This document shows, one piece after another, positions 379-5,871 of a DNA stretch of 31,368 nucleotides. Within the stretch, counting starts at the first letter, position 1. Every line of letters starts with the position of its first letter. The notes under the pieces were generated by a model. That model saw nothing but the letters and a program-made list of their open reading frames with translations, searched no databases and was not told the origin of the DNA. A program made the position numbers and the translations under genes. The DNA comes from a virus. The stretch lies in the IMG/VR virus record IMGVR_UViG_3300033149_001645, positions 1-31,368 of that record; one strand, 5' to 3'.

Positions 379-657
379 CTATTTTGCTGCCCAAACTTTA
401 GCAAACTTCACCGCTTTCCGATTACCTTCCCTGTGCAACTCCGCGCACTCCGAACAAAGCAGGTATATTTTCTCTACAATCTCTGTCGCTGTTTTGCCGT
501 AGGCGTAGCACTTAACTGCTTCCAGGTTGTGCGGGAATGTCTGCACTTCGTAATCTCTGCCTATTCCCCTGATAATTATCCACGGTCCGCGGCGGCCTAT
601 TACTTTTAGCATTGTGCCGTTGCAGTTTTTGTAGCGGACTAAATCACCTGGTTTCAT
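379..657 (-). CDS. Small phage protein with SH3-like N-terminus and a CxxC motif
   Basis: 92 residues, not recognised as a named family. The N-terminus (KPGDLVRYKN, then TMLKVIGRRGPWIIIRG) looks like a small beta-barrel of SH3/KOW type. The C-terminal third contains CSEC followed by a histidine and is basic, compatible with a small metal-binding or nucleic-acid-binding region. Its ATG overlaps the stop of the DNA methyltransferase by 4 nt (ATGA), so it is translationally coupled to it. Role unknown. Confidence 0.6.
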   Translation of the reverse strand: MKPGDLVRYKNCNGTMLKVIGRRGPWIIIRGIGRDYEVQTFPHNLEAVKCYAYGKTATEIVEKIYLLCSECAELHREGNRKAVKFAKVWAAK

Positions 658-1604
658 AAACCAATCACCTCGTAACTATCGTTAAATATGTTTGTTTGCT
701 GATACTCACCAAACCCAACACGTTTCAGGGCCATTTTTAGGTATTTCGGGTTCATGTCAATGTATACTGAGTTCCGGCCCAACTCCTTAGCTACCATGCT
801 CGTCGTACCGCTGCCGCTGAACGGGTCTAGGACTGTGCCACCTTCAGGGCAGCCTGCTAGGATGCAGGGCTTGATTAAGTCGGGCGGGAACACTGCAAAG
901 TGTGCGCCTTTGAATGGGTTGGTGGCTACTGTCCAAACAGTGCGTTTGTTGCGACCTTTAGGATGTGTTCCCACTGGTCCACTTTTGTTTCGTGCCGCTG
1001 AAAGAATTACTCCGTTCCCATATTCCTTGCATTTACGCTTTAAGGGACGTGCTGACTCCCTTATCGCGTCCTGGTCGTAGTAGTAATGCGGCGATTTGGT
1101 TAACAAGAAGATATACTCATGCGCTTTTGTCGGCCTATCCTTCACGCTTTCAGGCATCGGATTCGGCTTGTACCATATAATGTCACTACGGAGATACCAA
1201 CCGTTTGCTTGTAATGCAAAGGCCACTCGCCAGGGTATGCCGACGAGGTCTTTGGGTTTTAAGCCAGGAGCATTTACACCAGATCTGTTTAAATATTTAC
1301 CCTGTTTGGGTCTCCATTGTTTTTTCCCGCCTGGATGTCCGCCATTTCTACCAGCATTGTAAGTATCCCCCAGATTCAGCCACAACGTCTCATCATCTTT
1401 CAACACCCGTCGCACTTCGCGAAATATCTCAACTAACCGGTTAACGTATTCTTCCGGTGTTTGCTCTAAACCAATCTGTTCGGCCACGCCATAATCGCGC
1501 AAGCCGAAGTAATGAGGAGAAGTAACACAACAGTTTACGCTTTCACTTGGCAACTGTTTAAGTATGCCCAATGCGTCTCCGCAATAGAATTTATGGTGCG
1601 TCAT
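654..1604 (-). CDS. Site-specific DNA methyltransferase, beta class (N4-cytosine or N6-adenine)
   Basis: 316 residues from ATG 1604, which sits 9 nt after GGAGG; an upstream TTG touches the ribosome site and is less likely. Motif IV comes first (TSPHY, residues 28-32, followed by FGLRDYG) and the AdoMet motif I last (VLDPFSGSGTT, about residues 258-268). This IV-to-I order defines the beta amino-methyltransferases. The usual fourth residue of the catalytic tetrad is P (SPPY); here it is H, a small deviation. Methylation of phage DNA would protect it from host restriction or alter regulation. It overlaps the small gene upstream and the CxxC gene downstream, and lies in the same operon as the PAPS-reductase-like gene. 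Target base and site cannot be read from sequence. Confidence 0.88.
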   Translation of the reverse strand: MTHHKFYCGDALGILKQLPSESVNCCVTSPHYFGLRDYGVAEQIGLEQTPEEYVNRLVEIFREVRRVLKDDETLWLNLGDTYNAGRNGGHPGGKKQWRPKQGKYLNRSGVNAPGLKPKDLVGIPWRVAFALQANGWYLRSDIIWYKPNPMPESVKDRPTKAHEYIFLLTKSPHYYYDQDAIRESARPLKRKCKEYGNGVILSAARNKSGPVGTHPKGRNKRTVWTVATNPFKGAHFAVFPPDLIKPCILAGCPEGGTVLDPFSGSGTTSMVAKELGRNSVYIDMNPKYLKMALKRVGFGEYQQTNIFNDSYEVIGL

Positions 1605-1779
1605 TGCTAACAACCTCCAGATAATACTCCCACCACGTCAACTTATACGGTTGCACCGGTGCGGGGAACAAGCTGCAAACCCGCACCAGTTTCAACCCCT
1701 TCCTGTCCAACACGTGTTTGATATTCTGCATCGCTTCTTCTTTGTTGGACGCTACTGTGCGACCCATTTGGATTAGCAC
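1591..1779 (-). CDS. Small hypothetical protein between PAPS-reductase-like gene and methyltransferase
   Basis: 62 residues, unrecognised. The GTG start overlaps the stop of the PAPS-reductase-like gene (TAGTG) and the end overlaps the methyltransferase start by 14 nt, so it is embedded in the operon. An internal ATG at 1767 is an alternative start. Codons for 'IKHVLD' contain one exact copy of the 13-bp motif found elsewhere in the window. The C-terminal WWEYYLEV segment looks beta-stranded. No function can be proposed. Confidence 0.55.
   Translation of the reverse strand: MLIQMGRTVASNKEEAMQNIKHVLDRKGLKLVRVCSLFPAPVQPYKLTWWEYYLEVVSNDAP
1708..1720 (-). repeat. 13-bp motif copy (CAAACACGTGTTG)
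   Basis: Exact copy of the window-wide motif CAAACACRTGTTG on the minus strand, inside the small gene 1591-1779. It is followed by GACAGG, as at 3582-3594. Confidence 0.7.
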
Positions 1780-2482
1780 TATCCATCACTCACTTTTAAC
1801 TCTAACTGGTACGGGTTATAGTTCCGTTTAATTAGCTCTCTTAATGTCGTATCGCGTTTAAGCGTATATCCTATCTCCTCTTCCAACTTTGCCACCTTTT
1901 CAAATAAATCAGGATAATATCTGTAAAGTTGAATCCACTCGTTTACTGTGTTAAACACGCAACAATAACAACCAAGTCGCGTAAAATGTTTATAAATAGG
2001 GTGCGGACTTAATCCTGCTTGTCTTATCACTTCCCAAACCTCATGGGTTGTCCAATTGAGTATCGGCCTATACCCTTGTATTCTTAGATTCTTGTTAAAA
2101 TAACTAGCTTGATAATTAGCTCGTCTGTTGCTTTCTTGACGGCGTTCTCCGGTAATAAAGATATCTTCCTTGCGATTACAGCTTGCAGTTATCCATTTAG
2201 CTGTCGGTTCAGTTTTTAGCCTGGAAGTGCAAGTTCTATACTTAGCGTCGTAGAATTTGCCCATGTAGCGAACTAGACTAAACCAGTTCCACTTATCGTT
2301 TTTAACTCGGTGTATTTTTATGTTTAGCTTTTTTCAATGTATTCTAGGTACTCGTATGTTTCGGGAAACTCTGCGCCAGTATCGTTGAACACCGTAACAA
2401 TGTCTTTTTTCCCGTATTTTGATAAAGTCCATAATAATGTTGCTGTGCTGTCTTTGCCTCCGCTATAACTCACGATATACAC
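1779..2482 (-). CDS. PAPS-reductase-family protein, split by an apparent frameshift
   Basis: Two open segments together make one N-type ATP-pyrophosphatase of the PAPS reductase/DndC-like superfamily. The first (2324-2482 from GTG; also open from TTG 2506) holds the P-loop SYSGGKDST and 'VFNDTGAEFPET'. The second (ends 1779; first ATG at 2264) holds 'RTCTSRLK', 'ITGERRQES', a 'LNWTTHEVWEVI' segment and the late cysteines 'LGCYCCVFN'. Reading the bases between them in the second frame gives continuous, sensible protein (LNIKIHRVKNDKWNWFSLVRYMG), and the frames meet at a run of six A residues (minus strand, 2334-2329) that would need one more A. It is a real mutation, a sequencing indel, or slippage on the homopolymer. 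Phage relatives are suspected of roles in DNA or nucleotide modification; the substrate here is unknown. Confidence 0.75.
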
Positions 2483-4881: not shown

Positions 4882-5511
4882 TCAAGAAACTCTTTGCCAG
4901 AATTTCACAATATTATCAATTGATTTTTTAACCAAAATACTCATATCAACTTTTTTGTATTTTAAAGACCTATCCCATTTTAATTTTTCGTTTATAAACT
5001 CGCCATATTGGGCTGCTTTCAAGTAACTGTTGCCGTCAATACTGACTACATTTTGAATATATTGCCATATTTCGTACTGTTGCCTGGGGGTGCCTCCAAG
5101 CAAGTGTACTTTGCGCCCTGCTAACTCCCATAATCCAATTTCCGCCCCTCCGTAACTTGTCGGTACCGAATAACCTATAATAAATTCTTCAGGGATTTTG
5201 TTAATTATTCCCGATATATGAGGAACAACAATTACACTAGATGCATATACGCTGAGTTTTTTTGCTTTTATTAGCACTTCTTTTATATCTTCTTCTTTAA
5301 AAATGTCTGGTGCCACCGCATATTTAGGTTTGTATTTTTTAACTACAGATAAATGAAGTTCCCAATTTGGTTTATGAAAGTTGAAGTCTAAAAACTCTGG
5401 CTTGCAACAACTTAACTGTTGTTTATGGTCTGTACGTGCCCCAATTATCATTCCTTTTTCTTTTGCATAACAACAAAAGGGAGGTCTGCTACATAGAATT
5501 AAATCAATCAT
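4882..5511 (-). CDS. TGT-like (DpdA-like?) putative nucleic-acid base-exchange protein
   Basis: 209 residues from ATG 5511; this ATG overlaps the stop of the GNAT gene (ATGA) and lacks a good ribosome site of its own, so translation is probably coupled. The sequence resembles a shortened tRNA-guanine-transglycosylase barrel. 'KPKYAVAPDIF' could supply the first acidic residue, 'GYSVPTSYGG' the loop before the late strands, 'KVHLLGGTPRQQYEIWQYI' matches the LGxGTP-type strand and helix, and 'VVSIDGN' could supply the late Asp. Phage TGT paralogs (DpdA) exchange guanine for 7-deazaguanines in DNA. No zinc cluster or preQ0 synthesis gene is visible here. The assignment rests on motif pattern and the GNAT neighbour, and is inference. 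Confidence 0.5.
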   Translation of the reverse strand: MIDLILCSRPPFCCYAKEKGMIIGARTDHKQQLSCCKPEFLDFNFHKPNWELHLSVVKKYKPKYAVAPDIFKEEDIKEVLIKAKKLSVYASSVIVVPHISGIINKIPEEFIIGYSVPTSYGGAEIGLWELAGRKVHLLGGTPRQQYEIWQYIQNVVSIDGNSYLKAAQYGEFINEKLKWDRSLKYKKVDMSILVKKSIDNIVKFWQRVS

Positions 5512-5798
5512 AGTTCTAAACACCATACATTTAACGATCTTTCTTTCCTAACTAACTTAAATCCATTTTTTTGATACCATTCATTTGCCTTTAAGTGTTC
5601 AGGACATTTGGCTACAATACACTTTGCATTTTTAACATTTTTAAGCATCTGTAAAATCTTTTGACCTTGTCCTTTCTTATCAGAAATGATTTCATAAATG
5701 GTTATTTGCCCATCTTGTCGCAAATGCCATCTACACATTGCTCTATCCAATAAAATCAGTTCTCCCCGTTTATAACTTTCATAAAGTTGTGGGAACAA
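5508..5798 (-). CDS. GNAT-fold acetyltransferase-like protein
   Basis: 96 residues from TTG 5798, six bases after GTAGGTGG (GTG 5807 is in frame but has no ribosome site). It is a compact GNAT fold: 'MCRWHLRQDGQITIYEIISDKKGQGQKILQML' gives the beta4/motif A region with a reduced acyl-CoA loop, and 'AKCPEHLKANEWYQKNGFKLV' is the typical GNAT motif B end. The following gene overlaps it and looks like a base-exchange enzyme, so the pair may act on one substrate. Mu Mom, which modifies adenine in phage DNA, is also a GNAT relative. Substrate unknown; it could equally acetylate a protein or metabolite. Confidence 0.7.
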   Translation of the reverse strand: MFPQLYESYKRGELILLDRAMCRWHLRQDGQITIYEIISDKKGQGQKILQMLKNVKNAKCIVAKCPEHLKANEWYQKNGFKLVRKERSLNVWCLEL

Positions 5799-5834
5799 TT
5801 TTTCCACCTACTTTTAATAATTCCTACAACCAAA

Positions 5835-5871
5835 CACCCCTAGCCCGGACTGTGCGGCCCGGGCTGGGGTG
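5835..5871 (-). terminator. Strong stem-loop, putative terminator or attenuator
   Basis: CACCCC-t-AGCCCGG pairs with CCGGGCTGGGGTG (13 bp with one bulge) between two gene groups. On the minus strand the stem is followed by TTTGGTTG, a poor U-tract, so partial termination or RNA processing is as likely as full termination. Confidence 0.5.

Follow-up and report, generated by a model that had tools for sequence, protein, structure and literature searches.

What does a phage gain from a very small GNAT-fold protein whose gene runs into that of a putative transglycosylase? Such a pair lies on the minus strand of the 31,368-base IMG/VR virus record IMGVR_UViG_3300033149_001645 (the window, i.e. the whole stretch of DNA analysed), and the features of the locus are collected in Table 1. 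Our tentative answer, to which we assign a rough probability of just under one half, is that the phage DNA carries N-acylated 7-aminomethyl-7-deazaguanine, with the GNAT and a minimal DUF6610 protein working as one unit.

Layout of the locus

Both of the ORFs that a first-pass annotation had described as overlapping between 4882 and 5798 were found there, coupled through an ATGA in which the TGA stop of the GNAT gene overlaps the ATG of the DUF6610 gene, and they do not represent a chance ORF pair, as homologues of both genes are conserved. The listed GNAT ORF opens at GTG 5807; however, a Shine-Dalgarno-like AGGTGG precedes TTG 5798, and this codon also matches the aligned start of the family, MIFETLYES. 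The start is therefore best set at this TTG, in keeping with the gene end annotated first. The pair is AT-rich, as had been remarked, with a GC content of 35–37% compared to 40–50% in its surroundings. The strong hairpin reported to precede it is also there, with a 15-bp GC-rich stem, a folding energy of -31.9 kcal/mol and a significant z score of -2.35. A preQ1 riboswitch or other known RNA at this position was considered and rejected, as the Rfam search yielded zero matches. The integrase encoded in the window is similar to integrases from phages of Geobacillus and Paenibacillus, which suggests, rather than proves, a Firmicute host. No PADLOC model matched the GNAT-DUF6610 pair.

Table 1. 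Positions of the gene pair and nearby features in the window.
Feature	Position	Strand	Description	Basis
DNA methyltransferase	654–1613	(-)	accessory region, near the left end of the window	
PAPS-reductase-type PP-loop domain	1779–2264	(-)	accessory region, near the left end of the window	
DUF6610 protein, 209 aa	4882–5511	(-)	ATG 5511 to stop 4882; predicted DNA-guanine transglycosylase, compact TGT/DpdA-type TIM barrel	
ATGA stop/start overlap	5508–5511	(-)	translational coupling, GNAT to DUF6610	sequence
Minimal GNAT, 96 aa from TTG 5798 (99 aa from GTG 5807)	5508–5798	(-)	predicted acyl-CoA-dependent N-acyltransferase	
AGGTGG, Shine-Dalgarno-like site	5804–5809	(-)	5 nt before TTG 5798	sequence
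GC-rich hairpin	5835–5871	(-)	separates the pair from the gene upstream of it; lacks a T-run and any Rfam match	folding, Rfam search

The DUF6610 protein, its fold and its gene neighbourhoods

The larger ORF belongs to Pfam family DUF6610 (PF20314), which it matches over the entire profile (1–198 of 198; E=1.2e-53, 182 bits against a curated cut-off of 27), and it also matches two PHROGs of unknown function. A sequence search of the PDB returned no relative for either this protein or the GNAT, and scanning the viral collection with each of them as a single sequence gave zero matches, so that alignments were needed as queries. Homologues of DUF6610 were drawn from haloarchaeal viruses, mycobacteriophages, haloarchaeal plasmids, IMG/VR and bacterial genomes, and 78 sequences were aligned with the window protein placed first. 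Three aspartates, D42, D69 and D159, are invariant in all 78 sequences, and the same holds for P97, S115, H136, L138, G139, G140 and Q145. The strand motifs VAPDIF, HLLGGTP and VSIDGN, on which the initial suspicion of a transglycosylase had been based, are present and fall within the most conserved stretches of this large family.

The AlphaFold2 model of the window protein is a TIM barrel (pLDDT 96.1, pTM 0.91) in which D42 ends strand 3, D69 follows strand 4 and D159 ends strand 8, with VVPH, GYSVPTSYGG and HLLGGTP located at strands 5, 6 and 7, respectively. In tRNA-guanine transglycosylases (TGTs) the catalytic aspartate pair occupies strands 3 and 8 and the base-binding aspartate strand 4. 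The E. coli enzyme presents, in this order, DSGGFQ (D89), DECTPYP (D143), GGLAVGE, YLMGVGKPED and MFDCV (D264), and D42, D69 and D159 share the motif order of D89, D143 and D264; the barrel with catalytic acids predicted for this ORF was thus borne out by the model and by the invariant residues. The corresponding motifs of canonical phage DpdA are VFLDSGAFSA, LDVIGD, FH, GGMVG, HGFG.T and SVDSSSW. When the model was compared with the PDB by Foldseek, a TGT with guanine (2pwu) ranked second (E 3.5e-4) amid generic TIM barrels, and in the comparison with viral models the named hits that ranked after the DUF6610 members were for the most part queuine tRNA-ribosyltransferases, TGTs or known DpdA-type proteins, including one from Vibrio phage nt-1. 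The hhalign comparison of DUF6610 with DpdA1 was not significant (probability 0.8%, E 0.065, 24 columns), and the transglycosylase assignment therefore stands on fold, motif order and context and not on sequence similarity. Of the TGT/DpdA-like label given initially, the barrel and the order of the aspartates were retained, whereas the protein belongs to a separate DUF6610 family and not to canonical DpdA, to which no profile link is detectable. DUF6610 is likely a compact DNA-guanine transglycosylase and probably one of the "DpdA4" type, a class of DNA-guanine transglycosylases that Cui et al. reportedly described in 2023 as specific to archaeal viruses.

The neighbourhoods of DUF6610 genes point in the same direction. 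Haloarchaeal virus proteins HVTV-1 gp69, a DUF6610 homologue with 35% identity to the window protein, and HCTV-1 gp64 are encoded next to FolE, with QueE, QueC, QueD and QueF nearby, and HVTV-1 DNA carries dPreQ1 at approximately 30% of its guanines, no DpdA having been recognised there in 2019 (PMC6884629). In phage contigs, ParB-DUF6610 fusions were found inside QueF-QueC-QueD-QueE-FolE operons in which DpdA was undetected (L068, L081/82, L101, L110 and L120). Moreover, DUF6610 is fused to an N6/N4 DNA methylase (N6_N4) downstream of QueF in one phage (L065:6887-8686), and in a Nostoc record (L133) a single chain continues from GNAT-DUF6610 into a C5-cytosine DNA methylase domain that covers only part of its model. 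As DUF6610 is fused to DNA methylases and the DNA of HVTV-1 contains dPreQ1, the substrate is likely DNA and not RNA, and the "DNA or RNA" modification put forward at first shifts towards DNA. The fold kinship of DUF6610 to TGT would also agree with a phage enzyme that alters host tRNA, on which the GNAT would then act; this is very improbable in view of the methylase and ParB fusions, of the window, in which no tRNA gene was found, and of the dPreQ1 located in the DNA of HVTV-1 (PMC6884629).

Several of these loci have further peculiarities. The phage with the N6/N4 methylase fusion carries two DUF6610 genes, the second one in a separate GNAT-DUF6610 pair. QueF overlaps DUF6610 on a haloarchaeal plasmid (L008:5532-6726), a possible plasmid-borne dPreQ1 system. 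Mycobacteriophages Rinkes and Funsized (L005 and L006; genes 1 and 3) have, within a single preQ cluster, a canonical DpdA in addition to a ParB-DUF6610 fusion, so these two proteins may not be interchangeable. In two other records (L053:7693-8814 and L055:7693-8826) a second ParB-like protein directly follows ParB-DUF6610; its diverged C-terminal half gave zero Pfam matches, and it is possibly a degenerate DUF6610 paralogue.

A separate clade of DUF6610 proteins, with 100/100 support, comes from Pseudomonadota and Bacteroidota genomes (L096, L112, L122-L132 and L135; e.g. L131:7929-9229), and in the loci inspected the next gene after DUF6610 encodes a conserved protein of about 210 aa that seems to contain membrane helices and matches neither Pfam nor PADLOC. 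This layout resembles that of a sensor with a membrane effector and possibly corresponds to an undescribed defence system. By extension, the pair in the window could serve in counter-defence or signalling, the barrel sensing or cleaving a nucleotide and the GNAT modifying a protein, with DNA not being the substrate. We give this interpretation little chance, as the clade with the membrane protein is separate and the associations with DNA methylases, ParB and the preQ1 pathway indicate DNA modification.

The GNAT and its association with DUF6610

According to its model, the smaller ORF is a complete minimal GNAT, for which acyl-CoA transfer activity is predicted. The window protein on its own matches PF13508 (Acetyltransf_7) weakly (E=0.0045), with members of its family reaching 1.5e-16. 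AlphaFold2 produced a complete small GNAT fold (pLDDT 96.9), and the best 50 matches listed in a fold search of the PDB were all GNATs, in agreement with the minimal GNAT-fold protein proposed by the first-pass annotation. The G-x-G of the CoA-binding loop is kept, as GQG in the window protein and as RQGQGIG in relatives, and so is the N..Y..GF motif of beta4-alpha3 (ANEWYQKNGF). In two records a small protein without Pfam match is encoded directly upstream of the GNAT (L002:3697-4008, which is R5C gp87, and L022:5706-6008); by eye it resembles a degenerate second GNAT and is perhaps a non-catalytic partner. In another record (L045:5929-6798) the gene immediately before a solitary GNAT of the window family encodes a DUF4326 protein with an apparent ASCH domain.

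Co-occurrence of both genes across phages, anticipated from the window, was observed in the neighbourhood survey. Among 80 distinct DUF6610-bearing viral records (window included), the GNAT is adjacent to DUF6610 in 30, mostly overlapping and with the GNAT first, and in 7 further records both are fused. Fusions are known as GNAT-DUF6610 (L097, L113, L119 and the cyanobacterial L133 and L134) and in the opposite order (L075/76 and L085/86). In the reverse approach, scans that used only the GNAT as query recovered 23 viral contigs, 15 of which have DUF6610 directly beside it. The two genes are thus a conserved module. Well-supported branches of the DUF6610 tree require no fewer than 7 changes in GNAT adjacency and no fewer than 2 in fusion, which implies repeated gain or loss of this linkage. 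In 7 records (L014, L018, L022, L025 and L043-L045), some of them fragmentary and three only partly searched for DUF6610, the GNAT is present and neither DUF6610 nor DpdA was detected, and records with DUF6610 only exist as well, several being fragments; neither gene, therefore, strictly needs the other on the same contig.

Mu Mom is a GNAT-fold protein that acts on phage DNA bases, and the GNAT sometimes stands alone, so the window protein could be a Mom-like modifier of adenine that neighbours DUF6610 by chance. This is the least credible of the explanations weighed here, given that adjacency and fusion recur; kinship to Mu Mom was rejected (hhalign probability of 0.1%). The fact that many unrelated phages keep the genes adjacent or fused supports that the phage probably swaps guanine for a 7-deazaguanine, which is then acylated.

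Source of the base and proposed modification

In Dinoroseobacter phage R5C, genes gp82-88 follow the order queC, folE, queF, hypothetical, DpdA, gp87 and GNAT, and the related phage Pan1 shares this cluster except for the GNAT and gp87, a difference that fits the GNAT as an optional tailoring step. A YkgJ-family cysteine-cluster protein precedes DpdA in Pan1 (L136:3847-4497) and is absent at that position in R5C; possibly it is an alternative tailoring enzyme. In L053 the genes after ParB-DUF6610 encode a Vut_1 (YhhQ-like) transporter, QueF, the GNAT and QueC, with 4-nt overlaps. Since the GNAT of this phage overlaps two enzymes of free-base synthesis, and TGT-type enzymes accept free bases (as established for bacterial TGT), the steps could also run in the reversed order, with free preQ1 acylated by the GNAT and ready-made N-acyl-preQ1 inserted into DNA by DUF6610. 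We regard this sequence of events as rather unlikely, because the GNAT is found fused with the transglycosylase, on either side of it, as well as with a DNA methylase, which suggests that it acts at DNA.

PreQ1, the product of QueF, is the 7-deazaguanine precursor that bears a primary amine, the usual acceptor of GNATs. No QueC, QueF, TGT or other preQ gene was found in the 31 kb of the window, and host supply is therefore assumed; as QueF was above cut-off in 9/10 bacterial genomes bearing DUF6610, such a supply is plausible. QueC and QueF are also missing from most of the paired records. This scarcity of QueF, and the variety of known 7-deazaguanine side chains (PMC6884629), could mean that DUF6610 inserts preQ0, CDG or an unknown base, the GNAT targeting another amine there or on a nearby base. 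We consider this clearly unlikely: the side chains of preQ0 and CDG carry no primary amine, QueF is found with DUF6610 in most of the relatives that encode preQ genes, and the R5C cluster contains it.

The preferred reading, a two-enzyme DNA hypermodification module in which DUF6610 inserts a 7-deazaguanine, likely preQ1, before the GNAT N-acylates it, has in our view even chances of being right. In such a scheme D159 would attack the glycosidic bond, with D42 as acid/base and D69 holding the base, and selected guanines of the phage DNA would be exchanged for a 7-deazaguanine, most likely preQ1 taken from queuosine synthesis in the host. Bound or fused to DUF6610, the GNAT would then acylate the primary amine on the aminomethyl group, in the simplest case with acetyl from acetyl-CoA; for this acylation of preQ1 we see the odds as balanced. 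The product, N-acyl-dPreQ1, would hide the DNA from restriction.

We know of no report of an acylated 7-deazaguanine DNA base, and a search of openly available papers returned none on DUF6610, DpdA4, or an acetyltransferase together with 7-deazaguanine. If the proposal is true, it would add an acylation step to 7-deazaguanine bases, a major phage shield against restriction. The product would represent a class of DNA hypermodification not reported before, and the GNAT would be the first of its fold to tailor 7-deazaguanine in DNA. The proposal would also assign a role to DUF6610, so far without known function in Pfam, and to a very small GNAT family, and suggest gp69 as the enzyme that modifies HVTV-1 DNA. 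Finally, a two-enzyme system of about 300 residues, which also occurs naturally as a single chain, could be of use for labelling DNA.

Compared with known systems, the window DUF6610 protein has in common with canonical DpdA1, bacterial DpdA and TGT the TIM barrel and the order of the catalytic aspartates and glycine motifs, but it is much shorter (209 aa), has no significant profile similarity to them and lacks the Zn-binding domain of TGT. Mu Mom acts alone, on adenine, and the window GNAT has no detectable sequence relation to it. The R5C GNAT belongs to the same family as that of the window (36% identity, E 6e-12) and likewise follows a transglycosylase, which in R5C is a canonical DpdA instead of DUF6610, accompanied by an encoded preQ1 pathway and by the extra small upstream protein gp87. 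HVTV-1 gp69, compared here as a candidate DpdA4, is a DUF6610 protein encoded among the preQ1 genes of a virus whose DNA contains dPreQ1, whereas the window protein, without preQ pathway or ParB domain, comes from a bacterial phage and is coupled to a GNAT.
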